Positions 36,861 to 55,574 of a DNA stretch of 64,000 nt are shown one piece after another; positions within the stretch are counted from its first letter, which is position 1, and every line of letters begins with the position of its first letter. Source of the DNA: Nisaea sediminum. GTDB taxonomy: Bacteria; Pseudomonadota; Alphaproteobacteria; Thalassobaculales; Thalassobaculaceae. The position numbers were made by a program, and so were the translations under genes. The notes under the pieces were generated by a model. The model was not told the origin of the DNA. It did no database searches and saw only the letters and a program-made list of their open reading frames with translations. The stretch covers positions 620,001 through 684,000 of the forward strand of contig NZ_JACZCQ010000003.1 in NCBI RefSeq assembly GCF_014904705.1, read 5' to 3'.

Positions 36861-38168
36861 TCAAATGTCGAGCGTGGTTTCGCGTTCCCATTCGGTCAGA
36901 TGCGAGGTGTAGCTGTTCCACTCGCCGGTCTTGAGCTTCACATAGGCCGCGGAGAATTCCTTGCCCATCGCCGCGGTCAGCCCTTTGTCCGCCTCGAAGG
37001 TCCGGATCGCGTCCAGGAGGTTCAGAGGCAGCTTCGGCGCGTCGGCGGCGAGCGCGGGTTCGGCATACATGTCGTGGTCGTAGCGCTTGCCCGGATCGGC
37101 CTTGGCCGCCAGCCCGTCGAGACCGGCCGCGATCACCACCGCCTGCAGCAGGTAGGGATTGGCCGCGCCGTCCGGCAGACGCAGCTCGAACCGTCCCGGT
37201 CCCGGCACGCGCACCATGTGGGTGCGGTTGTTGCCGGACCAGGTGACCGAGTTCGGCGCCCAGGTCGCGCCGGAGAGCGTGCCGGCGGCATTGATCCGCT
37301 TGTAGGAATTCACCGTCGGGTTGGTGATCGCGGCGAGGGCCCGCGCATGGCTCATGATACCGCCGAGGAAGTGCATCCCGTCCTTCGAAAGACCGAGCTC
37401 GTCCTTCTTGTCGGCGAAGACGTTCTCCTTGCCCTTCTTGTCCCAGACCGAGACATGGCAATGGCAACCATTGCCGGTCAGGTGGCTGAAGGGCTTCGGC
37501 ATGAAGGTCGCCCGCAACCCGTGCTTCTCGGCGACCGACTTGACCATGAACTTGAAGAAGGAATGCTTGTCCGCCGTCTTCAGCACGTCGTCGAATTCCC
37601 AGTTCATCTCGAACTGGCCGTTCGCATCCTCATGATCGTTCTGGTACGGCCCCCAGCCGAGCTCCAGCATGTAGTCGCAGATCTCGGAGATGACGTCGTA
37701 GCGCCGCATCACTGCCTGCTGGTCGTAGCAGGGTTTCACCGCGGTATCGCGCGGATCGGAGATCTCGGAGCCGTCCGGCAGGATCAGGAAGTATTCCGCC
37801 TCGACGCCGGTCTTGACGCGCAGGCCCTTCTTCGCCGCGGCGTCGACCAGACGCAGAAGCGTGTTGCGCGGCGCCTGCGCGACCGGTTTTTCCTCCATGA
37901 AGCAATCGGCCGCGACCCAGGCGACGTCCTTCTTCCAGGGCAGCTGGATCACCGAGGACGGATCGGGGACCGCGAAGAGATCCGGATGGGCCGGCGTCAT
38001 GTCGAGCCAGGCGGCAAAGCCGGCGAAGCCCGCGCCCTCCTTCTGCATGTCCGCGATGGCGGCGGCCGGGACCAGCTTGGCGCGCTGGGCGCCGAACAGG
38101 TCGGTGAAGGAGATCATGAAGTACTTGACCCCCTTCTCTTTCGCAAAGGCTGCGAGATCCTTCGTCAT
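36861..38168 (-). CDS. glnT: Type III glutamine-synthetase-like ligase (GlnT / GmaS type)
   Basis: A 435-residue glutamine-synthetase-fold ligase. Metal and substrate motifs seen are GVEAEYFLI, the HEDANGQFEMNW stretch, LTGNGCHCHVS, NPTVNSYKR and RFELRLPDGAANPYL. GGAGGG lies directly before the ATG. GlnT makes glutamine; the closely related GmaS makes gamma-glutamylmethylamide from methylamine. The presence of the GlxBCD/MgsABC-type trio upstream fits both, and sequence reading alone cannot decide. Confidence 0.85.
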   Translation of the reverse strand: MTKDLAAFAKEKGVKYFMISFTDLFGAQRAKLVPAAAIADMQKEGAGFAGFAAWLDMTPAHPDLFAVPDPSSVIQLPWKKDVAWVAADCFMEEKPVAQAPRNTLLRLVDAAAKKGLRVKTGVEAEYFLILPDGSEISDPRDTAVKPCYDQQAVMRRYDVISEICDYMLELGWGPYQNDHEDANGQFEMNWEFDDVLKTADKHSFFKFMVKSVAEKHGLRATFMPKPFSHLTGNGCHCHVSVWDKKGKENVFADKKDELGLSKDGMHFLGGIMSHARALAAITNPTVNSYKRINAAGTLSGATWAPNSVTWSGNNRTHMVRVPGPGRFELRLPDGAANPYLLQAVVIAAGLDGLAAKADPGKRYDHDMYAEPALAADAPKLPLNLLDAIRTFEADKGLTAAMGKEFSAAYVKLKTGEWNSYTSHLTEWERETTLDI

Positions 38169-38237
38169 GAACCCTCCTAAGTCCCCAGTTCTCCCTGTCG
38201 ATGCGCACGGCGTTCGGCGCCGCGTCGTTCGGCGTGT

Positions 38238-39566
38238 TCAGAGCCCGGTCTTGCCGGGTATCCAGTCGGTGCCTGCGAGCGGCACGCCTGCCATGGCCGA
38301 AGCCTCGATGGTCAGCGCGCAGAGATCCTCCGGCTCGAGATTATGCACATGGCTCTTGCCGCAGGCGCGCGCGATGGTCTGCGCCTCCAGCGTCATCACC
38401 TTGAGATAGTTGGCGAGCCGACGCCCGGCGGCGACCGGGTCGACCCGCTTCATCAGCTCCGGATCCTGGGTCGAGATGCCCGCCGGGTCGCGTCCCTCGT
38501 GCCAGTCGTCATAGGCCCCGGCCGTGGTCCCGAGCTTATTGTAATCCGCTTCCCATTTCGGATCGTTGTCGCCGATCGCGACCAGCGCCGCCGTGCCGAT
38601 GGAGACGGCGTCCGCGCCGAGCGCCAGCGCCTTTGCCACATCGGCGCCGCTGCGCACGCCGCCGGAGACGACGAGCTGGACCTTGCGGTGCATGCCGAGT
38701 TCCTGCAGCGCCGCGACCGCCGGCCGGATGCAGGCGAGCGTCGGCAGGCCGACATGTTCGATGAAGACCTCCTGGGTCGCCGCCGTACCGCCCTGCATAC
38801 CGTCGAGCACCACCACATCGGCGCCGGATTTCACCGCAAGGGCGGTATCGTAATAGGGCCGCGCGCCGCCGACCTTGACGTAGATCGGCTTCTCCCAATC
38901 GGTGATCTCGCGCAGCTCCTGGATCTTGATCTCAAGATCGTCCGGCCCGGTCCAGTCCGGATGGCGGCAGGCGGAGCGCTGGTCGATGCCTTCCGGCAGG
39001 GTGCGCATCGCGGCCACCCGCTCGGAAATCTTCTGCCCGAGCAGCATGCCCCCGCCGCCCGGCTTTGCGCCCTGCCCGACCACGACCTCGATCGCGTCGG
39101 CCCGGCGCAGGTCGCGCGGGTTCATGCCATAGCGCGACGGCAGGTACTGGTAGACGAGGATCTCGGAATGGCCGCGCTCCTCCTCCGTCATGCCGCCGTC
39201 GCCGGTCGTCGTGGAGGTCCCGGCGAGGGTCGCGCCGCGGCCGAGCGCCTCCTTGGCGGGCCCGGAGAGCGAGCCGAAGCTCATGCCGGCGATGGTGATC
39301 GGGATCTTCAGCTCGATCGGCTTCTTCGCGAAGCGGGTGCCGAGCACCACGTTGGTGCCGCAGGCCTCGCGGTAGCCCTCCAGCGGATAGCGCGAGATCG
39401 AGGCGCCGAGGAACAGCAGGTCGTCGAAATGCGGCACCTTGCGCTTCGCCCCGCCGCCCCGGATGTCGTAGATCCCGGTCGCCGCGGCGCGGCGGATCTC
39501 GGAGAGCGTATAATCGTCGAAAGTGGCGGACTGACGCGGGACGGTCGGGGGATTGGTATAGGTCAT
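38238..39566 (-). CDS. glxD: FMN-binding glutamate synthase-like protein (GlxD/MgsC type)
   Basis: A 442-residue stand-alone version of the central FMN domain of glutamate synthase. Typical segments are ITIAGMSFGSLSGPAKEALG, VVVGQGAKPGGGGMLLG, PIYVKVGGARPYYD and the barrel end VSGGVRSGADVAKALALGADAVSIGTAAL. It lies 11 bases after glxC. In N-methylglutamate synthase this subunit reduces 2-oxoglutarate-derived intermediate with methylamine; in GlxD its role is less clear. Confidence 0.87.
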   Translation of the reverse strand: MTYTNPPTVPRQSATFDDYTLSEIRRAAATGIYDIRGGGAKRKVPHFDDLLFLGASISRYPLEGYREACGTNVVLGTRFAKKPIELKIPITIAGMSFGSLSGPAKEALGRGATLAGTSTTTGDGGMTEEERGHSEILVYQYLPSRYGMNPRDLRRADAIEVVVGQGAKPGGGGMLLGQKISERVAAMRTLPEGIDQRSACRHPDWTGPDDLEIKIQELREITDWEKPIYVKVGGARPYYDTALAVKSGADVVVLDGMQGGTAATQEVFIEHVGLPTLACIRPAVAALQELGMHRKVQLVVSGGVRSGADVAKALALGADAVSIGTAALVAIGDNDPKWEADYNKLGTTAGAYDDWHEGRDPAGISTQDPELMKRVDPVAAGRRLANYLKVMTLEAQTIARACGKSHVHNLEPEDLCALTIEASAMAGVPLAGTDWIPGKTGL

Positions 39567-39576
39567 CTGTCCGTCC

Positions 39577-40263
39577 TCAATAGGCGTCGGCGTTGTCGAT
39601 GTTGAAATTGTAGAGCTGGCGGGCGGAGCCGTAGCGGGTGAACTCCTCCGGCTTGACGTCGGTGATCCCGGCGCGTTTCAGGAGTTCCGCCAGAAGCTCG
39701 AGATGCTTCGGCTTCATCTTCTTTTTCACGCAGTCGGCCCCGAGGCTTTTCACCTTGCCGCGCACGAAAAGCTTCGCCTCGTAGAGCGAGTCGCCGAGCG
39801 CGTCCCCCGCATCGCCGAGCACGACCAGCGTGCCGGCCTGGGCCATGAAGGCGGACATGTGGCCGATATTGCCCTTCACGACGATGTCGATGCCCTTCAT
39901 GGAGATGCCGCAGCGCGAGGAGGCATTACCCTCGATCACCAGCAGGCCGCCATGGCCGGTGGCGCCCGCATACTGGCTCGCATCGCCCTTCACCACGACG
40001 GTGCCCGACATCATGTTCTCGGCGACGCCCGGCCCGACGCTGCCATGCACGGTGATAGTCGCCTCGGCATTCATGCCGGCACAGTAATAGCCGCAGTTCC
40101 CGCGCACATCGACATTCACCGGCGCGTCGATCCCGACCGCGACCGCATGGGCGCCGCGCGGGTTCAGCACCTCGAAATCCATTTCGTTCGTGCCGGCGGT
40201 CACGTTGTGCAGCGCCTGGTTCAGCTCGCGCAGCGGCACCTTCGCCAGATCGAAGCTCGGCAT
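39577..40263 (-). CDS. glxC: Glutamate synthase C-terminal-domain-like protein (GlxC/MgsB type)
   Basis: A 228-residue protein made of the beta-helix (GXGXG) domain found at the C-terminus of large-subunit glutamate synthase, recognisable from repeated turns such as VNVDVRGNCGYYC, GTVVVKGDASQYAG and VVKGNIGHMSAFMA. It is structural and links subunits. It begins three bases after the stop of the amidotransferase gene, indicating translational coupling. Confidence 0.87.
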   Translation of the reverse strand: MPSFDLAKVPLRELNQALHNVTAGTNEMDFEVLNPRGAHAVAVGIDAPVNVDVRGNCGYYCAGMNAEATITVHGSVGPGVAENMMSGTVVVKGDASQYAGATGHGGLLVIEGNASSRCGISMKGIDIVVKGNIGHMSAFMAQAGTLVVLGDAGDALGDSLYEAKLFVRGKVKSLGADCVKKKMKPKHLELLAELLKRAGITDVKPEEFTRYGSARQLYNFNIDNADAY

Positions 40264-40266
40264 TCC

Positions 40267-41163
40267 TCAATGCTCCCAGAAATAGACGGTGGCCGGCTCG
40301 GGCTCCCAGACGCGTGCGTTCTCGATCCCGGGCAGGCCGACCAGCGCTCGGTATTCCGAGCCGAAGGCGACATACTCGTCGGTCTCGGCCATCACCGCCG
40401 GCTTGCAGGCGATCGGGTCGCGCAGCACGCCGAATCCGGACTTGGTGCCGACGACGAAGGTGTAGAAGCCGTCGAGATCGCTGAGGCCGCTTTCCAGTGC
40501 ATGACCGAGATTCTGCCCCTCCGCCAGCTTGTGGCTGAGATAGGCCGCCGCGACCTCGGTGTCGTTTTCGGTCTCGAAACGGAGCCCCGCCTTGATCAGC
40601 TCGCGGCGGAGGTTGTTGTGGTTGGAGAGCGAGCCGTTATGCACGAGACACTGGTCCGGCCCGGTCGAGAACGGATGCGCGCCAAAGGTGGTCACGGCGG
40701 ATTCCGTCGCCATCCGCGTATGGCCGATGCCATGGGTGCCGCTCATCTTGCCGATGCCGAAACGCTCGGCCACGTCTTTCGGCAGCCCGACCTCCTTGAA
40801 GATCTCGACGCTCTCGCCCCGTCCCATGACGGTGATGCCCGGCCGAAGTTCCGTCAGCGCGTCGCGCGCCGCATCGAGTTTGTCCACCGCGAGCGAGATC
40901 ACCGCATGGGTCGCCCGCACATCGACGGAGACTTCCGTGCCGATCTTCTTCGACAACGCTGCGCCAAGCCCCTTGAAGTCGCTTTTCGGATCGGCTGACT
41001 GGACGGTGATCTTGCCCGCGCCTTTCGCGGACGGGCCGTAGATCGCGATACCCGCGCTGTCCGGCCCTCGGTCGGTCATGGTGATCAGCATGTCCGAGAG
41101 CAGCGCGCCGAGCCGCGGCTCCAGCGCCTTGTCCTTCAGGAACAATCCAACGATGCCGCACAT
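40267..41163 (-). CDS. glxB: Class II glutamine amidotransferase (GlxB/MgsA type)
   Basis: 298 residues. The start is ATG 41163 because a class II amidotransferase needs Cys as residue 2 (MCGIVGLF), exposed when Met is removed; GGAGG lies nine bases upstream. Motifs HTRMATES, HNGSLSNHNNLR and ENDTEVAA are standard for glutamine binding. It supplies ammonia or the equivalent gamma-glutamyl transfer for the GlxCD/MgsBC partners. First gene of the split glutamate-synthase operon, downstream of a palindromic operator. Confidence 0.88.
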   Translation of the reverse strand: MCGIVGLFLKDKALEPRLGALLSDMLITMTDRGPDSAGIAIYGPSAKGAGKITVQSADPKSDFKGLGAALSKKIGTEVSVDVRATHAVISLAVDKLDAARDALTELRPGITVMGRGESVEIFKEVGLPKDVAERFGIGKMSGTHGIGHTRMATESAVTTFGAHPFSTGPDQCLVHNGSLSNHNNLRRELIKAGLRFETENDTEVAAAYLSHKLAEGQNLGHALESGLSDLDGFYTFVVGTKSGFGVLRDPIACKPAVMAETDEYVAFGSEYRALVGLPGIENARVWEPEPATVYFWEH

Positions 41164-41237
41164 GGCCGGCAACCTCCGTTTCTTGATCTCGAACGGACGT
41201 TAGCAGGCGGCTCGGGCGAGCACAATTGAGAAGAATA

Positions 41238-43506: not shown

Positions 43507-45687
43507 TCAGAATTTCGCGGTCATGGTCAGCATGAAGGTCCGTGGGCGGCCCTGGATCAGGTAATTCGCCCCCGGATAGCCTCCGGTCGAGGCCCAGTAG
43601 GATTCGTCCGTCACATTGTCGACTCGACCACGGAAGGTCACCGGCACCTCGTAGAGATGGGCGACATACCGCACCCCGAGATCGAGCGTCGCCCAGCTGT
43701 CGAGCTCGACCGTATTCGCCTCGTTCACATATTGCTCGCCGGTGTAGGTCACCCGGCCGTCGAGGGTCAGACCCTCGACATAGGGAAGATCCCATTCGGC
43801 GAGGAAGGTGCCCTGGAACTCCGGCACGCCGATCGCCTTGTTGCCTTCGTTGGTGCCCCCCTCGGTCTTCTCCAGCTCGGCATCGATGAAGGTGACGCCG
43901 CCGAGCAGGCGGACGCCCTCCATTGGCTCGCCGAAGACGGTGAGTTCGATGCCCTGATTGCGCTGTTCGCCGTTGGCCTTGTAGGCCTGGTTCTCGACGA
44001 TCGCGTTCTGCTGGGTGATGGAGAAGACACTCGCCGTCGCCCCGAAGGTCCCGAGGTCGTATTTCACGCCGATCTCGATCTGTTCGCTCTTGAACGGTTC
44101 CAGAGCCTCGCCGGCATTGCTGATCGCCGTCCCTCCGCTGGTCGCCGGCGCGATCTCGCCCGGCTGCAGCGCCTCGGCGTAATTGCCGTAGAGCGAGAGG
44201 TTCGGCATCGCCTTGTAGACGATCCCGAGCGCCGGAGTGATCGCCTCGTCCGAATATGAAGAAGCTTCGGCGCCCGTGTTGTAGTCGAATGTCTTGGTCT
44301 CGATCTGCTGGTAGCGCACGCCGAGCGTGGTCAGCAGCCGGTCATCGAAGAAGCTGAGCGTGTCGGCAAGCGCGACGCTCGAGTTCGTCGTCTCCTCGGT
44401 TTTCAACGGATTATCGAGATCCCCGCCGGTGAAGAAGGTCGCGTCCGGCGCCGCGACATCAACCGGGTTGTAGAGATTGCTGGAGAAGCCGGAGAAGCTG
44501 GAAAAGGCATAGGCATTCTTGCTCTCCAGATGGGTCGCCGAGACCGAGGCCACGACCCGGTGCCCGACCGGGCCCGTGCGGAACTCGCCGCGCATCCCCG
44601 CATCGCCGGAGACGACCGAGTCCTCGCGGGTATTGTCGAAACGGTAGGCGGTCAAGCTGCCGTCCGCCGCCGCGCTGGGATTGGCGAGCACGTTCGCCTC
44701 GTCGCCGTCCCGCACACCCCCGGCGAGCCAGACGGTCACATGGTCGGTCACGTCGAGCTCGCCGCGGACCGCGCCGAAGAGCTGCCGCTCGTCCGTGTAG
44801 GTCCAGTCCTGGCCATAATTGGTCGTGCTGTCCGGCGCGTCCGGCACGTCGCCAAGCGGCGTCACCTGCGGGCGCGGGGAATCGATGCGGTTGTCCTGGT
44901 AGCCGAGATCTACGGAGAAGCGGAAACGCTCACCCGCGAAATCAGTGCCGAGCGAGGTCGCGAGCAGGCTACGCTCCTCGTCGTCGATCGCGGTCTCTCC
45001 GTCGCGGCCGACCGCATTGAAGCGGAGGCCCCATTCCTTCGACGGGCCAAAGCGCTCGCCCAGATCGAGTGCGCCAAGGAACTGGCTGTCGCTCTCGACG
45101 CCACCGGTGATGCTGCGGATCCCCTCGTCCGGCGCCCGCTTCGGCACCAGATTCACGGTTCCGCCGACCGCACTGCCGCCGGGGGCCGCACCGTTGATGA
45201 AGGCATTGGCGCCGCGAAACACCTCGACCCGCTCCATCAAACCGGCGGAGACGAACTGGCGCGGCAGGATGCCGTAGAGGCCGTTCAGGGTGATGTCGTC
45301 CGAATAGACCGGGAAGCCGCGGATGACATAGACCTCCTGGAAGTTGCCGAAGCCCTTGGCGACGCGCACGGTCGGGTCGTTCTTCAGCACGTCGCCGATG
45401 CTGTCCGCCTGCTGGTTCTCGATCAGCTCCTGAGTATAGGCGCTGCCGCTGAAGGGAGATTCGAGGAAGTCGAGATTCCCGAGCAGGCCCGCCCGGCCGC
45501 CGGTCGCGACCTGTCCGCCGGCATAGGTCTCCGTCAGTTCGACCTGTGAGCCTTCGACCACGATCGGCTTCAGTGTCTCGGTCGCTGACTGGTTCGAACT
45601 GTCCTGCGCCCTCGCGGCACCATGCGCCAGAATCGCCGTCGCCGCCGCGAAGAGAAGCGTGACCTTCCCGCTCTTAACTTTCCACAT
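43507..45687 (-). CDS. TonB-dependent outer membrane receptor, siderophore type
   Basis: About 726 residues from ATG 45687 (a GTG two codons upstream is possible). A signal peptide ends near ARAQD. The plug domain shows VRVAKGFGNFQEVYVIRGFPV and RVEVFRGANAFINGAAPGGS; the 22-strand barrel ends in Phe (MLTMTAKF), as expected. The plug motifs are those of FhuA/FpvA-type ferri-siderophore receptors. A Fur-like palindrome lies 45 bases upstream, pointing to iron control. Confidence 0.9.
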   Translation of the reverse strand: MWKVKSGKVTLLFAAATAILAHGAARAQDSSNQSATETLKPIVVEGSQVELTETYAGGQVATGGRAGLLGNLDFLESPFSGSAYTQELIENQQADSIGDVLKNDPTVRVAKGFGNFQEVYVIRGFPVYSDDITLNGLYGILPRQFVSAGLMERVEVFRGANAFINGAAPGGSAVGGTVNLVPKRAPDEGIRSITGGVESDSQFLGALDLGERFGPSKEWGLRFNAVGRDGETAIDDEERSLLATSLGTDFAGERFRFSVDLGYQDNRIDSPRPQVTPLGDVPDAPDSTTNYGQDWTYTDERQLFGAVRGELDVTDHVTVWLAGGVRDGDEANVLANPSAAADGSLTAYRFDNTREDSVVSGDAGMRGEFRTGPVGHRVVASVSATHLESKNAYAFSSFSGFSSNLYNPVDVAAPDATFFTGGDLDNPLKTEETTNSSVALADTLSFFDDRLLTTLGVRYQQIETKTFDYNTGAEASSYSDEAITPALGIVYKAMPNLSLYGNYAEALQPGEIAPATSGGTAISNAGEALEPFKSEQIEIGVKYDLGTFGATASVFSITQQNAIVENQAYKANGEQRNQGIELTVFGEPMEGVRLLGGVTFIDAELEKTEGGTNEGNKAIGVPEFQGTFLAEWDLPYVEGLTLDGRVTYTGEQYVNEANTVELDSWATLDLGVRYVAHLYEVPVTFRGRVDNVTDESYWASTGGYPGANYLIQGRPRTFMLTMTAKF

Positions 45688-45731
45688 GAACACTCACCCC
45701 CGGAAAAGAAACTTGAGGGCTTGTAAATGCG

Positions 45732-45806: not shown

Positions 45807-47213
45807 TCAGAAGAGCGAGAAATACTCCCGCTCTTCCCACTCCGAGACCGCCTGCGCGTAGCGGTCCCACTCCGCCTGCTTGATGCGGGCATAGTAATCG
45901 ACATAGGCATCGCCGAGCGCGGCGCGGAAGAAGGCGCTCCCGCGGAACAGGGCGAGCGCCTGGTCGAGACTGGTGGGAAGGCGCGCGGCATCGTTCTCAT
46001 AGGGCCGTTCGACCGGCTCTGGCGCCTCAAGTCCGCGCTCGATGCCGTCGAGGCCGGCAAGGATCTGCGAGGCGATGTAGAGATAGGGATTGGCCGCCGG
46101 CTCGCCGATGCGGTTCTCGACCCGGCTGGCACCGTCGCCCGGCCGGGCGAGCGCGCGGATCATCGCGCCCTTGTTGTCCCGTCCCCACTGCACCCGGTCG
46201 GGCGCGAGGGTGAAGGGACGGTAGCGCTTGTAGCCGTTCACTGTCGGCGTCGAGAGCAGGCAACCCTCGGCGGCATGGTCGAGCAGGCCCGCGACCCAGC
46301 TCCGGCCGAGCTTCGAAAGCGCCTCGCCCTCTTCCGGCACCATCAGATTGTCGCCGCTCTCGAGATCGACCAGCGACTGGTGCAGATGCCAACCGCTCGC
46401 CATCGCGTCCTTGAATTTCGGCCGACACATGAAGGTCGCGTGCAGACCTTCACGGCGACAGACCTGCTTCACCATGGAGCGGAAGAGCACCATGTTGTCC
46501 GCATGCTCCATCGCGGAGGCCGGATGGAAGGTGACCTCGCACTGGCTCGGCCCGAACTCGGTTTCAAAGGAACGCACCGGCAGGCCGAGCGCAACCGCGT
46601 TGCGGCGAACGAGATCGAAGACCTCCTCCAGCCGGTCGTAGCGGTCCTCGGTGAGGTACTGGTAACCGTGGGAGAGAAGCTCCGTCTGCGGCGGCGTCTC
46701 CGGCTGGCCCGTATCCTCGTGACCAAGTTTCGGATCGGTCACACGCAGGACGTGGAACTCGACCTCAAGCCCGGTGACGAGATCGTAGCCCTGCGCGTTC
46801 AGCTTCTCCACAGCGCGGCGGAGAATGCCGCGGGAGCAGACTTCAAGCGGCGTGCCGTCGGTGTCCGCGAGATCCGCCTGCATCCACCCCGAATGCGGCG
46901 ACCAGGGCAGGGTTTTGAATGTCGTGGGATCCGGCAGCATCAGCACGTCGCCCGCCCCGGTGAGGCGGCCGGCACCGAAACCCGCATCCTCCTGCCAGAC
47001 AGGGAAGACCGTGCGGTGAGAGGTATCCTTCAGCAGCAGGGTCGAGGTCATGGCGATGCCGGAGCGGAAGGCGCTCTCCAGCGCGTCCGCCATGATGGTC
47101 TTGCCGCGCAGGATACCGTGCTGATCGGCGAAGGAGATCCGGACGACTTCCAGCCCCTCTTCCGCGACCTGCTTCAGAACGGCGTCGATCACGGCCTGTC
47201 TTTCACCGGACAT
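45807..47213 (-). CDS. Glutamine-synthetase-family ligase (gamma-glutamyl-amine/anilide synthetase-like)
   Basis: 468 residues from ATG 47213, which overlaps the region just after the Rieske gene stop. Glutamine-synthetase motifs: GLEVEFHVL, FETEFGPSQCEVTF, MASGWHLHQSL, TPTVNGYKRYRP and RVENRIGEPAANPYLY. The sequence is of the PuuA-like branch, whose members link glutamate to amines, rather than the GlnA branch. It is the third gene of a ferredoxin-Rieske oxygenase operon, recalling gamma-glutamylanilide synthase of aniline dioxygenase clusters. True substrate unknown. Confidence 0.85.
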   Translation of the reverse strand: MSGERQAVIDAVLKQVAEEGLEVVRISFADQHGILRGKTIMADALESAFRSGIAMTSTLLLKDTSHRTVFPVWQEDAGFGAGRLTGAGDVLMLPDPTTFKTLPWSPHSGWMQADLADTDGTPLEVCSRGILRRAVEKLNAQGYDLVTGLEVEFHVLRVTDPKLGHEDTGQPETPPQTELLSHGYQYLTEDRYDRLEEVFDLVRRNAVALGLPVRSFETEFGPSQCEVTFHPASAMEHADNMVLFRSMVKQVCRREGLHATFMCRPKFKDAMASGWHLHQSLVDLESGDNLMVPEEGEALSKLGRSWVAGLLDHAAEGCLLSTPTVNGYKRYRPFTLAPDRVQWGRDNKGAMIRALARPGDGASRVENRIGEPAANPYLYIASQILAGLDGIERGLEAPEPVERPYENDAARLPTSLDQALALFRGSAFFRAALGDAYVDYYARIKQAEWDRYAQAVSEWEEREYFSLF

Positions 47214-47215
47214 GT

Positions 47216-48538
47216 TCACGAGAGCGCCGCGTCCCAGCTGCAGGCGGCGCGGCGGCCGGCATCGCGGTCCGTCCAGACCGTCTCCCAAGCTTCTGTCGGT
47301 CCGATGGCGTCGATCGAGATCGGTCCCTTCACCTGCTCGGCGGCGGCCTCGTCCAGCACGAGCGGCAGCGCACCCTCGCCCTCCTTGACACTCTTGATCG
47401 CGGACCGGAGCAGACGCCGATAGCGCACGATGGCGGCATCCGAGGACGCCAGATGCTCGCGCCGCCGGTCCTGGACCGCTCCCATGGATTCGACCGCCCA
47501 CTGGTCATGCACGTTGATGTCGAGCCCCATGCCGGTGTAGGTCAGCGTCTTCTGCTCTTCCGGATCGTAGCCGTACTGGTTCGTCTTGTTGCGGATCGGC
47601 GCGAAATCCGGCAGCCGGTGCTCCTTGATCCGCTGCTCCCACATCTTCTTCTTGTCGACCGGCGTGCCGAAGCTGGTGAAGACCGAGTACCAGTAGCAAT
47701 GGGTGTCGTCGATCGGCACATGCCACTGGGTGATGGTCATCTCGTTCGACAGCGGGATGGTGATGGCGCAGGGGAAGACCTGGTTGGTCACCCGGACATG
47801 GCGCTGTCCGTTGCCGAGATCGCGCAGCGCGATGATGCGGAGACCGTACTCGGTCTCCTCCACCTTCAGTTCCGGATTTGCGAATTCGCGCAGCACCTTG
47901 GTCATCGGCATGTCGCTCTGCGCCGCCTTGTCGCGGAACTGCTTGCCGTAGCCGTCCGCCGGGTCCTCGTCCTGGAGGAAGCGGTGCAAGAAGGAGGCGT
48001 GCGCCGGATCGATACCGATCTCCAGCGCCTGCAGCCAGTTGCATTCCCAGAGCCCCTTGAACGCAAAAACGTGGCTGTCCGGCGCACGGAAACAGTCGAG
48101 CGCCGGAAAAGCCGGCGGCTCGCCCGGCCCCATATAGGTCCAGATGACGCCGGCCTTCTCCACCACGGGATAGCTGGAGATCTTGATCCGCTCATGCATG
48201 CGCGATCCGTCGGGCTCGGCCGGCTGTTCCGTGCATTGTCCGGTTTGGTCGAAATGCCAGCCGTGGAAGGGGCAGCGGATGCCGCCATCCTCAAGCCGGC
48301 CGTAGCAGAGATCGACGCCGCGGTGCGGGCAGAAACGGCTCATCAGGCCGAGCGTGTCGTCCTCGCGCCGGAACAGCACCAGATCCTCGCCCATCAGGCG
48401 GACCGGCACCACCGGGCGCGGGCCCTCCTCAAGCTCCACGGCGAGCGCAGCCGGCATCCAGTACCGGCGCAGCACTTGGCCCGCCGGTTGATCGGCGCCG
48501 ACCAGTGTAATCTCGTCGTTCTTTTCCTGGCTCATCAT
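47216..48538 (-). CDS. Rieske non-heme iron oxygenase, alpha subunit
   Basis: A 440-residue oxygenase. The Rieske 2Fe-2S ligands are CPHRG...CPFHGWH (about residues 70-92). The mononuclear iron site is EIGIDPAHASFLHRF (about 172-186) with a further Asp later. It resembles the phthalate 4,5-dioxygenase/demethylase type that works without a beta subunit. AAGGAG precedes the start. The ferredoxin gene lies upstream and a glutamine-synthetase-like gene starts right after the stop. No reductase gene is present nearby. Confidence 0.88.
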   Translation of the reverse strand: MMSQEKNDEITLVGADQPAGQVLRRYWMPAALAVELEEGPRPVVPVRLMGEDLVLFRREDDTLGLMSRFCPHRGVDLCYGRLEDGGIRCPFHGWHFDQTGQCTEQPAEPDGSRMHERIKISSYPVVEKAGVIWTYMGPGEPPAFPALDCFRAPDSHVFAFKGLWECNWLQALEIGIDPAHASFLHRFLQDEDPADGYGKQFRDKAAQSDMPMTKVLREFANPELKVEETEYGLRIIALRDLGNGQRHVRVTNQVFPCAITIPLSNEMTITQWHVPIDDTHCYWYSVFTSFGTPVDKKKMWEQRIKEHRLPDFAPIRNKTNQYGYDPEEQKTLTYTGMGLDINVHDQWAVESMGAVQDRRREHLASSDAAIVRYRRLLRSAIKSVKEGEGALPLVLDEAAAEQVKGPISIDAIGPTEAWETVWTDRDAGRRAACSWDAALS

Positions 48539-48578
48539 GGCGGAAGTCTCCTTCGTCGAAGACGCGGATGAAAGGCGG

Positions 48579-48911
48579 CTAGTACTGGGTCTCCGGAATG
48601 GTGACGGTAAGGCCGTCCATCTCCGGGGTCAGCTTGATCTGGCAGGAGAGCCGGCTGGTCTCGCGCCGTTCGGCGGCCGCGTCCTCCAGCATTGCGAGCT
48701 CATCCTCCTGCGCCGGCGGCGCGAGCTTCATGCCTGCGTCATCGAGATAGACGTGGCAGGTGGCGCAGACGCAGCTTCCGCCGCATTCGGCCTCGATGCC
48801 CTCGACATCGTTGAAGACGGCGGCCTGCATGACGGACTCGCCGGTCTCGGCCTCGACGGTTTCCCGCGCGCCGTCCGGCTTCACGAAGGTTACGGAGATT
48901 TTCTCTCCCAC
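48579..48911 (-). CDS. 2Fe-2S ferredoxin (adrenodoxin type)
   Basis: A 110-residue ferredoxin from a GTG start with AAGGAGAG upstream. The cluster ligands are CGGSCVCATC with a further Cys near SRLSCQIKL. This is the vertebrate-type/adrenodoxin family that passes electrons to P450s and Rieske oxygenases, so it likely feeds the Rieske oxygenase encoded 40 bases downstream. Confidence 0.9.
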   Translation of the reverse strand: MGEKISVTFVKPDGARETVEAETGESVMQAAVFNDVEGIEAECGGSCVCATCHVYLDDAGMKLAPPAQEDELAMLEDAAAERRETSRLSCQIKLTPEMDGLTVTIPETQY

Positions 48912-48964
48912 GGCAGATCTCTCCTTGCAGGCCCTGACAGGACGCCGGACCCGCTGTTCCGTTT

Positions 48965-49014
48965 GACCGATTATCGAACATTCGGTCTATTATTGATCAA
49001 AGACAAAATAGACC
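48965..49014. promoter_or_regulatory. Overlapping inverted repeats between ferredoxin operon and IclR gene
   Basis: Two repeats overlap: GACCGA (48965-48970) / TCGGTC (48982-48987), and GGTCTATT (48984-48991) / AATAGACC (49007-49014). They lie in the AT-rich divergent promoter region, 37-86 bases before the IclR start, and are the natural candidates for its operators. Confidence 0.55.
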
Positions 49015-49050
49015 GCAGCCGCAGGGCTCGGTCAAGCCCATGGGAGCACC

Positions 49051-49848
49051 ATGACCGTCCAAGTGCCAGAGAAAGCCGCTCCGCTCTCCACGGAGATCGC
49101 CGACAAGGACATTTCGCTGACCTTCGCGAAAGGTATGGAAGTGCTGGAGGCCTTCGAAAGCGCGGCCGCTCCCCTGACCATTCCCGATCTCGCCCGCCGG
49201 ACCGGCATCAACCGCTCGGTGACGCGCCGACTGGTCCTGACCCTCGTGCGCCTCGGCTATCTGACGGAAGCGAACCGCTCCTATGCACCGAGCCCCCGCG
49301 TGCTCCGGCTCGCCAGCGGATATCTGAGGGAGCGCCAGTTCGGCCGGACGGTGCAGCCCGTCATGGCGTCCTATTCGAAACAGCTCGGCGACGCGATCTC
49401 GCTCGCGGTCCGGGACGGAGCCGACGCGATCTATGTCGCCTACTCGCCTGGCGACCCGGCGCTGATTACCTCCGGCTTCGGCATCGGCTCGCGTCTCCCG
49501 CTGACCGCAACCGCAATCGGCCGCGCCCTCCTGGCCTTCGCCGAAGAGGAGGTCATCGACGAACTGCTTGCCGCTCCGCTGCCCGCCTACACGGCCACGA
49601 CCAAGACCGACCCAGCCGCACTCCGGTCCGACCTCGGCGAAACGCGCGCACGCGGCTACGCGCTCGTCACGGGTGAGTATGAACCGGGCGTCACGTCCAT
49701 CGCGGTTCCGATCCTTGACGGCCGTGGCAAAGCCAAGGCCGCACTCGGCATCGTCGGTCCGGCGGCACGGTTCGAGGAAATCGCGGTCTGCACGCAAAAA
49801 GCGGTAATGCTGCGGGACTGCGCGGAAACGCTGGCAAGCTTCGTCTGA
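49051..49848 (+). CDS. IclR-family transcriptional regulator
   Basis: A 265-residue regulator. The N-terminal winged helix (about 25-85, LTIPDLARRTGINRSVTRRLVLTLVRLGYL) is followed by the IclR effector domain (about 100-260, with GFGIGSRLPLTATAIGRALLA and SIAVPILDGRGKAKAALGI). It is of the PcaR/PobR branch that controls aromatic acid degradation. It is divergent from the ferredoxin/Rieske/ligase operon and probably controls it. Confidence 0.9.
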   Translation: MTVQVPEKAAPLSTEIADKDISLTFAKGMEVLEAFESAAAPLTIPDLARRTGINRSVTRRLVLTLVRLGYLTEANRSYAPSPRVLRLASGYLRERQFGRTVQPVMASYSKQLGDAISLAVRDGADAIYVAYSPGDPALITSGFGIGSRLPLTATAIGRALLAFAEEEVIDELLAAPLPAYTATTKTDPAALRSDLGETRARGYALVTGEYEPGVTSIAVPILDGRGKAKAALGIVGPAARFEEIAVCTQKAVMLRDCAETLASFV

Positions 49849-53368: not shown

Positions 53369-54229
53369 TTAGTCTGCAATGGTTAACGATTGGCTAGCCG
53401 GGGTCAGAATGAAATCGTAGCGCGACCGCCAGAGCGTATCCCCATCTATCCGCTCGAACGGCGCGACTAGGCTCTCCTTGACGCCGAAGACCGCGTCGGA
53501 GGTCAGATAGGGATCGCCTTCCACGAAAGTATGCGTGACGAGCTTCTCGAAGCCCGGCGCGGTGATCAGGAAATGCATGTGTGCCGGTCGCCAGGCATGA
53601 CGGCCGAGCGCCTTCAGCATGTCGCCGACCGGCCCGTCTTCCGGGATCGGATAGGAGACCGGCTTGATGCCGGTGAAATTGTAGGCACCGTCGGGCCCGG
53701 TCACGAAGATCCCCCGGTTGTTCCATTTCGGCTGCTCGTCCGGCTGCTGCACCGAATAGAACCCGTCGGCATTGTCGGACCAGACGTCGATCCGCGCGCC
53801 TTCGACGGGCTTTCCGTCCAGATCGATCACCCGGCCCTCGAAACGGCAGCTCTCGCCCTTGCCGTCGAGCGAGATCGTCTCGCCCATCTCCCGGACCGGT
53901 GCCCCGGCGACATGGAAGGGTCCGAAGACGGTATTCTCCGTCGCGCTCTCCGGGCGGCGATTGTTGATCGCATCGACCAGCATGGAAAAGCCGAGCACGT
54001 CGGAGAGCAGGATGAACTCCTGACGCTCGCCGGAGCATTTCTGCCCGGTCGCGGTCAGGAAGGCGATCGCCTGTTCCCATTCCTCCTGGGTGAGACCGGT
54101 CTCCTTGGCGAAGGCGTGCAGGTGCTTCACCAGCGACGTCATGAGTTCCGCCACGCGCGGGTTCGCGGTCCCGGCCGTCCGGCCGTTGACCACCGCGGCG
54201 GAAGAATCCTCGGTGAAATATCCGCTCAT
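53369..54229 (-). CDS. Intradiol ring-cleavage dioxygenase (hydroxyquinol/catechol 1,2-dioxygenase type)
   Basis: A 286-residue intradiol dioxygenase. The N-terminal linker helix domain has EEWEQAIAFLTATGQKC; Fe3+ ligands are the Tyr residues near 160 and 195 (YSVQ..., YPIPEDGPVG) and His residues in HAWRPAHMHF. The N-terminal pattern (LGFSMLVDAINNRRPESATENTVFGPF) is that of hydroxyquinol 1,2-dioxygenases. GGAGACGGAC precedes the ATG. It likely opens a trihydroxy- or dihydroxybenzene to a maleylacetate or muconate. Confidence 0.88.
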   Translation of the reverse strand: MSGYFTEDSSAAVVNGRTAGTANPRVAELMTSLVKHLHAFAKETGLTQEEWEQAIAFLTATGQKCSGERQEFILLSDVLGFSMLVDAINNRRPESATENTVFGPFHVAGAPVREMGETISLDGKGESCRFEGRVIDLDGKPVEGARIDVWSDNADGFYSVQQPDEQPKWNNRGIFVTGPDGAYNFTGIKPVSYPIPEDGPVGDMLKALGRHAWRPAHMHFLITAPGFEKLVTHTFVEGDPYLTSDAVFGVKESLVAPFERIDGDTLWRSRYDFILTPASQSLTIAD

Positions 54230-54245
54230 GTCCGTCTCCTTCGGT

Positions 54246-55454
54246 TCACCCGGTCTGCTTGCGGAAACCCGCCGTATTGCGATAGCTGGCAGCGACCTCC
54301 TCGAGTTCCTCCGCCGAGATGAGATCCTCGATCCTGTCCTCGGGCCCCGTCACGCGGGCGGCCGCGATGTCGAGGACCCGCTCGGGACCGGACCGGCGGT
54401 TGGCCAGAACAATCTCCGCCGTCGCCGGGCGCCGCGCAGCCTCGTAGGCGAGCAGACCTTCCGGTCCCGGCATGTCGGCCAGCGTATCGGCGAGACACCG
54501 GCCGTCAATGATCGCCTGCGAGGCGCCGTTGGCGCCGATCGGATACATCGGGTGCGCCGCATCGCCGAGCAGGGTCACGCGGCCGACGGTCCAGAAATCG
54601 ATCGGGTCGCGATCGACCATCGGAAACTCGGTGATCGTCCCGGTCTCTTCCATCAGGCGCACGATGTCCATGTCCGGCATCTTGAAGCCCCTGAAGGACT
54701 CAATGAATTCACGCGTTCCCTCACGGGTCCAGTCCGCGTCCTCGATATCGCGCGGCCGGTCGCGCCGCAGCTCTGCGACCCAGTTGGTGAGCGCCCGTCC
54801 CTTCCGCCGCACCCGCTCGCTGATCGGATAGGTGACGAACTTCACATCGTGATCGCCCGCGATGACCATGGTCCTTCCGTCGCCGATCACCCCGGAGGAG
54901 ACGGCGCCGCGCCACATCATCGTGCCTTCGTAATGCAGAGGTCCCTCGCCCGGATGGATTTGCGCGCGGACCGCCGAATGCAAACCGTCTGCGCCGATCA
55001 GAAGGTCATGCCTGCCGGAAGAGCCGTCGGCGAAGAAGATCCGCACCCCCTCCTCGTCCTGCTCGAACCGAAGGACCGCCTTTCCCGGCAGGACGGCATC
55101 GGCTCCAAGCCGCTCGCGCACCGTTTCCAGAAGCAGGAACTGCAGCTCTCCGCGATGCACGGAATATTGCGGCGCCGCGAAACCCGCCTCGACATTCCGC
55201 GGATCTGACTGGATCAGGTGACCATAGCGCGTCCGGTATTCGACGCAGCGTGTCCGGATCGCCATCTCGTCGAGCGCCTCGGCAAGCCCAAGTCCGTGCA
55301 GGATGGTCGAAGCCGACGGCATCAGGTTGATGCCGACACCCAGCGGCCGGAGTTCGTCCACCGCCTCCAAGACCCGGACACGCATGCCCCGCTCGGCGAG
55401 GCAGAGGGCCGCCGTCAGTCCCCCGATTCCGGCCCCGGCAATCGCAACATACAT
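54246..55454 (-). CDS. FAD-dependent aromatic monooxygenase (salicylate hydroxylase-like)
   Basis: 402 residues from ATG 55454 (MYVAIAGAGIGGLTAAL, the FAD-binding GxGxxG); an upstream start adds unlikely sequence. The DG motif (LLIGADGLHSAVRAQI) and GD motif (VTLLGDAAHPMYPIGANGASQAI) of class A flavin hydroxylases are present. It probably makes a hydroxylated ring for the intradiol dioxygenase encoded 16 bases downstream. No maleylacetate reductase is in the window. Confidence 0.87.
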   Translation of the reverse strand: MYVAIAGAGIGGLTAALCLAERGMRVRVLEAVDELRPLGVGINLMPSASTILHGLGLAEALDEMAIRTRCVEYRTRYGHLIQSDPRNVEAGFAAPQYSVHRGELQFLLLETVRERLGADAVLPGKAVLRFEQDEEGVRIFFADGSSGRHDLLIGADGLHSAVRAQIHPGEGPLHYEGTMMWRGAVSSGVIGDGRTMVIAGDHDVKFVTYPISERVRRKGRALTNWVAELRRDRPRDIEDADWTREGTREFIESFRGFKMPDMDIVRLMEETGTITEFPMVDRDPIDFWTVGRVTLLGDAAHPMYPIGANGASQAIIDGRCLADTLADMPGPEGLLAYEAARRPATAEIVLANRRSGPERVLDIAAARVTGPEDRIEDLISAEELEEVAASYRNTAGFRKQTG

Positions 55455-55574
55455 CGGCTTCCCCTTCCCGGCTCGACTGCCGCGGTTTCCTGGCGTCCGC
55501 GAAAGTCCGCCCGAGAAGGTCGGGCCCATTCCCGCCGCAATCAAGCCCTTCCTGTGAAATCCGCAAATCCGCTC

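Follow-up and report, generated by a model that had tools for sequence, protein, structure and literature searches.

The sad operon of Hydrogenophaga intermedia PBC was found by transposon mutagenesis and converts 4-aminobenzenesulfonate to 4-sulfocatechol (PMC5632844). It encodes a 4-aminobenzenesulfonate 3,4-dioxygenase system that is conserved in the genus Hydrogenophaga, in which SadA is the oxygenase, SadB a glutamine-synthetase-like protein and SadD a ferredoxin; what the original substrate of the dioxygenase was is a question raised in that work (PMC5632844). NpaA1 of Pseudomonas sp. JS3066 is a 1-naphthylamine gamma-glutamyl ligase that binds the amine with E232 and E234 and requires F75, a residue of its amine tunnel, for aniline (PMC11335346). 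The GoaS proteins are ligases of organic amines; they have typically lost the ammonia-site residues of glutamine synthetase (GS) and carry an extra N-terminal loop (PMC11335346).

We analyzed a stretch of 64,000 nucleotides from Nisaea sediminum, referred to here as the window. A first-pass annotation had read three of its genes, for a ferredoxin, a Rieske oxygenase and a GS-like ligase (GSL), as one operon without a small subunit or amidotransferase partner and with an alpha subunit of the phthalate dioxygenase type. This description held up. Pfam searches confirm the three genes, which run on the minus strand from 48911 to 45807 in the order ferredoxin, Rieske, GSL, with 40 bp between the first two and a 4-bp overlap between Rieske and GSL (Table 1). 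The oxygenase carries Rieske and LigXa_C domains, and the ferredoxin has the cluster motif CGGSCVCATC. No gene for a beta subunit, an amidotransferase or a ferredoxin reductase lies beside the trio; a type-1 glutamine amidotransferase-like homologue is present elsewhere in the genome and occurs nearby in a few relatives. GSL may start at the GTG at 47219, which overlaps the Rieske stop, or at an ATG at 47213. A longer reading frame of 564 amino acids reaching 47501 was rejected as an over-extension.

Table 1. Features of the operon and of the other window genes discussed in the text
Feature	Position in window	Strand	Evidence or remark
[2Fe-2S] ferredoxin (plant/putidaredoxin-type, SadD-like)	48579..48911	minus	GTG start, operon gene 1; Pfam Fer2 E 2e-10
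Rieske non-haem iron oxygenase alpha subunit (SadA-like, phthalate-dioxygenase type)	47216..48538	minus	Pfam Rieske E 1e-19, LigXa_C E 1e-32
Glutamine-synthetase-like gamma-glutamyl ligase, GSL (SadB-like, GoaS family)	45807..47219	minus	Pfam Gln-synt_C E 1e-85
IclR-family regulator, divergent	49051..49848	plus	Pfam IclR_C, HTH_IclR
Candidate IclR operator region, between divergent genes	48963..49035		Inverted-repeat scan
Intradiol dioxygenase (catechol/hydroxyquinol-type)	53369-54229	minus	Under equivalog cut-offs
Flavin monooxygenase, PRK07538-type	54246-55544	minus	Domain/profile search
TonB-dependent siderophore receptor	43507-45693	minus	Just downstream of ligase; profile score
GmaS-like type III GS with MgsC, MgsB, MgsA (glutamate-synthase-like)	36861-41172	minus	TIGR03105 670 bits (GmaS-like)

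The divergent IclR product is probably the regulator of the operon, and an IclR gene lies inside 56 of the 103 GSL loci that we collected (see below). An inverted-repeat scan of the intergenic region returned CGGTCTATT-N15-AATAGACCG at 48983-49015, GACCGA-N11-TCGGTC at 48965-48987, and the pair TTGACCGA/TCGGTCAA at 48963-48970 and 49028-49035. These repeats could be the IclR operator. The promoter and terminator scan gave no signal above chance.

The nearest solved relative of GSL in a PDB sequence search was NpaA1 (8wwu; E 8e-130, 437 bits), against 188 bits (E 2e-54) for the next entries, which are ordinary GS. GSL fell well under the curated NCBIfam cut-offs for GS (TIGR00653, 224 against 429; TIGR03105, 239 against 470). 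We take Asp50 and the flap residue Glu327 (Salmonella GS numbering) to be the ammonia-handling residues of GS; in an alignment to solved relatives they are replaced in GSL by Thr and Leu. GSL aligns without gaps to the N-terminal loop of GoaS (motif 15) and keeps, as E216 and E218, the equivalents of NpaA1 E232 and E234. Nearer to NpaA1 and AtdA1 than to GS, with the loop present and the ammonia residues gone, it shows the features of GoaS membership. In the ligase tree the aniline and naphthylamine ligases form the sister group of the GSL clade. Hence, the analogy to aniline dioxygenase drawn in the first-pass annotation is borne out for the ligase, which is sister to these enzymes, lacks the ammonia-site residues and has its gene in tight linkage with that of a Rieske oxygenase.

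The position of the tunnel residue F75 differs between the two groups. It is Phe or another uncharged residue in the aniline-type ligases, and an invariant Lys (K61 in GSL) throughout the Sad-type ligase clade, in most cases with a conserved Arg (R66) after it. The nearest solved structures to the Rieske protein are the isophthalate (9ina) and phthalate (7fjl) dioxygenases of Comamonas testosteroni KF1. In these enzymes IPDO R234 and PDO R244 bind the ring carboxylate, and changing R234 abolished IPDO activity (PMC12445078). Both align with R249 of the window's Rieske protein, a residue conserved, like the ligands of the Rieske cluster and of the iron, in at least 97% of 103 Rieske sequences. 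The second carboxylate-binding residues, PDO R207 and IPDO H257, are not kept in the clade, where the H257 position is an invariant Gln271; of the two carboxylate-binding residues of these dioxygenases, only the first Arg is present. Together, ligase K61 and Rieske R249 suggest that the substrate is an arylamine with an acidic, negatively charged group.

To compare the operon with sad, we used a Hydrogenophaga reference operon (locus L173) from a strain taken as sp. PBL-H3, not PBC itself. Its chromosome carries Rieske, GSL and ferredoxin genes in the sad order, with products 54, 47 and 49% identical to those of the window. A Rieske protein of this type, with 53-59% identity, occurs in most genomes of Hydrogenophaga, and their other full-length Rieske proteins reach at most 42%. 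This survey is consistent with the stated conservation of sad across the genus (PMC5632844). Trees of the ligase and of the Rieske protein each place the Hydrogenophaga sequences within the window's clade (SH-aLRT 99 for the ligase, 100 for the Rieske protein). That clade is distinct from the aniline ligases in the one tree and from the remaining phthalate-type Rieske enzymes in the other. In a 2012 study by the group that described the sad operon, removal of sadB reportedly abolished activity in E. coli. The window's own sub-branch consists mainly of marine Alphaproteobacteria with some Gammaproteobacteria and is separate from the branch that holds Hydrogenophaga and Novosphingobium resinovorum SA1, so its substrate may differ from theirs. 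Judged by its sequence, the window operon belongs to the known sad kind as a divergent example, and its arrangement has already been described. The first-pass annotation had raised the possibility of a distinct amine-activating oxygenase pathway. The system is distinct from aniline dioxygenase, with an alpha-only oxygenase, a separate ferredoxin and an aniline-type beta subunit in none of the 103 collected loci, but it is not a new kind, given the described operon of Hydrogenophaga (PMC5632844).

How general is the pairing of the two enzymes? We collected 103 GSL loci: 12 came from the window's own family, 11 from plasmids and 80 from named genomes. A Rieske gene was present in 102; the one locus without it, L091, ends at a contig edge. 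In 91 of the 102 paired loci the Rieske gene lies directly upstream of GSL on the same strand. A ferredoxin gene was near the pair in 17 of the 103 loci, and a reductase gene in 18. Within the window's own family, GSL occurred in 13 of 36 genomes at the chosen cut-off, with the Rieske gene adjoining in all 13. Because a collection of best hits is biased, we also sampled 397 Pseudomonadota genomes evenly across the phylum. This sample held 26 GSL-type genes in 25 genomes, 24 of them with the window's Rieske type nearby, one itself of the aniline type and one with no Rieske gene nearby. Rieske-GSL linkage is far beyond chance. Of the trio whose conservation the first-pass annotation had named as the point to survey, the pair is conserved (102/103 and 24/26), whereas the ferredoxin accompanies it in only 17 of 103 loci. 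We conclude that the Rieske-GSL system is a widespread, little-noticed relative of the sulfanilate-degrader system.

Some loci depart from this layout or add to it. At L180 (G150:C1:2877640-2879016) a Sad-type ligase stands with an IclR gene and no Rieske gene near, a combination seen just once in the phylum sample. On a Streptomyces tendae plasmid (L124:5965-9159) a GoaS ligase gene adjoins genes for a type-1 glutamine amidotransferase and a carbon-nitrogen hydrolase, and no Rieske gene was found nearby. A small gene for a CHMI-like tautomerase lies near the ligase gene, mostly directly after it, in 13 of the 103 loci (among them L045:9414, L046:9575, L050:9411, L036:13512 and L033:13347), including that of the sulfanilate degrader N. 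resinovorum SA1. The tautomerase possibly handles the oxygenase product.

We consider it likely, from the family of each protein, that these genes specify an arylamine dioxygenase of the Sad type that depends on glutamylation, in which the ring of an acidic aromatic amine is oxidized after tagging with glutamate. The ligase would link glutamate through its gamma-carboxyl, with consumption of ATP, to the amino group of the acid-bearing amine. The Rieske enzyme would then add O2 across the nitrogen-bearing ring carbon and its neighbor, and the product would collapse to a catechol with release of glutamine, as in the aniline route (PMC11335346). Electrons would pass through the operon's ferredoxin from a ferredoxin reductase encoded elsewhere; the genome has one of the right family (AndAa/HcaD-type) at G000:C1:307686-308882. 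The catechol would be cleaved by dioxygenases also encoded elsewhere. If it is protocatechuate, it could be cleaved by the genome's own PcaHG pair (G000:C3:753082-754262), both members of which score over curated cut-offs and which lies about 84 kb from the operon.

Neighboring genes in other genomes suggest an aminobenzoate as the substrate. A PnbB 4-hydroxylaminobenzoate lyase and nitroreductases are encoded near the pair in Caballeronia, Methylobacterium and probably Cupriavidus, and Palleronia has protocatechuate 3,4-dioxygenase (pcaHG) and other beta-ketoadipate genes there. Benzoate-CoA ligase is encoded near the ligase gene in Bradyrhizobium and, with BoxA-C, downstream of the pair in Amylibacter, whose ligase is close to that of the window. 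4-Aminobenzoate, which would give protocatechuate, is the simplest natural match; it or a close analogue is most likely what the system acts on in nature. More tentatively, and with less than even confidence, the whole clade may be a widespread natural 4-aminobenzoate-degrading system, running from 4-aminobenzoate through gamma-glutamyl-4-aminobenzoate to protocatechuate plus glutamine, with the sulfanilate activity of Hydrogenophaga sad as a by-product. A literature search, largely of papers outside the subscription journals, turned up no account of a route that glutamylates 4-aminobenzoate.

In an Amylibacter metagenome-assembled genome (L044:3332-13984) the pair runs, operon-like, into genes for benzoate-CoA ligase, BoxC, BoxB, BoxA and a BoxR-type regulator; box genes after the pair do not simply fit a catechol product. 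In N. resinovorum SA1 the plasmid that bears the Rieske-ligase pair also has an intradiol pair, about 40 kb distant, and no sulfocatechol genes were found within 25 kb of the Rieske-ligase pair.

Might the same chemistry instead serve a neutral, aniline-like amine, giving a catechol that the window's intradiol dioxygenase cleaves? The first-pass annotation had suggested that the window's ring-cleavage genes may complete the pathway. The aniline ligases are indeed the sister group, and the intradiol dioxygenase and flavin monooxygenase genes (53369-55544), about 5 kb off, stay near the pair within the genus (L021, L022 and L023). However, genes for a phosphatase, an SDR, a homoserine O-succinyltransferase and a PAS protein stand in between, and beyond the genus the neighborhood is not conserved, save for one intradiol match (L074). 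We rejected these genes as part of the operon; they are better taken as a separate cluster with housekeeping genes between, and the suggestion that they complete the route is not supported. With Lys at the F75 position across the whole clade and a Rieske protein of the carboxylate-binding phthalate type also against it, we regard a neutral amine as quite unlikely.

A different possibility is that the ligase acts on an aliphatic or benzylic amine and that the Rieske enzyme, instead of dioxygenating a ring, carries out an N-dealkylation or hydroxylates a benzylic position. GoaS relatives use isopropylamine and putrescine (PMC11335346), the LigXa/VanA-like domain matches include O-demethylases, and the Amylibacter benzoate-CoA ligase and box genes would fit a route that forms benzoate. 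Yet the nearest functional relatives, sad and the aniline systems, attack aromatic rings, and the nearest Rieske structures are isophthalate and o-phthalate dioxygenases. This alternative is improbable in our judgment. We also rejected an ordinary glutamine synthetase (GlnA or type III) as the identity of GSL: the GS models were missed, the ammonia residues are replaced and the gene is paired with a Rieske gene. The broader proposal that an ordinary or regulatory GS lies in the operon by chance, with the Rieske enzyme using a free substrate, can point to the Gln-synt_C domain, but it must contend with five further GS-family genes in the genome, scores far under the curated cut-offs, the loss of the ammonia site and the near-universal Rieske pairing in the clade. 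We hold it to be very improbable.

Other window genes lie close to the operon. It is doubtful that the TonB receptor gene belongs to it: an iron-box-like AATGAAAATCATTCGCATT stretch precedes its start, and some relatives have other genes in its place. The intradiol dioxygenase gene overlaps a PAS_5 gene. The GmaS-Mgs genes, which are accompanied by an amidase and a cupin regulator, are probably a second amine-activating set, for the gamma-glutamylmethylamide/N-methylglutamate pathway of methylamine use.

The chief interest lies in the breadth of the Rieske-GSL pair and in a natural substrate narrowed enough to test. If glutamylation-dependent oxidation of acidic arylamines is the correct reading, glutamate tagging before ring oxidation is a common pathway rather than a rare pollutant trick, present in marine, soil and root-nodule Pseudomonadota with an oxygenase subunit type unlike that of aniline dioxygenase. 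4-Aminobenzoate is a testable candidate both for the natural sad substrate and for turnover of this folate building block. If the clade is indeed a natural 4-aminobenzoate-degrading system, with the sulfanilate activity as a by-product, this would answer what the sad dioxygenase originally acted on (PMC5632844).

Among known systems, the sad operon shares with the window an alpha-only Rieske oxygenase, a GS-like ligase and a [2Fe-2S] ferredoxin, the first two of which fall in the same clades, and the same Lys/Arg loop signature in the ligase. The two differ in gene order (ferredoxin-Rieske-ligase in the window, Rieske-ligase-ferredoxin in sad), in regulator (IclR against GntR-like) and in branch, the window belonging to a separate, mostly alphaproteobacterial sub-branch. 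The aniline dioxygenases (AtdA1-A5, TdnQ, DcaQ) and NpaA1-A5 likewise activate the amine with a homologous GS-like ligase before a Rieske enzyme acts. However, they have their own alpha-plus-beta oxygenase of another Rieske type, an adjoining amidotransferase-like hydrolase, their own reductase and an aromatic residue (F75) in the ligase tunnel, where the window's clade has Lys; we rejected membership of the window operon in the aniline dioxygenase family, as it has no beta subunit and another Rieske type. PDO-KF1 and IPDO-KF1 are Rieske enzymes of the same alpha-only type and have the key Arg that binds a carboxylate, but they act on free diacids with no ligase, and their R207 and H257 are absent from the window's Rieske protein. 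Finally, GmaS, of which the window has a copy at 36861-38168, is also a GS-fold ligase for an organic amine; it is about 29% identical to GSL, belongs to a separate clade and has Mgs genes alongside instead of a Rieske gene.
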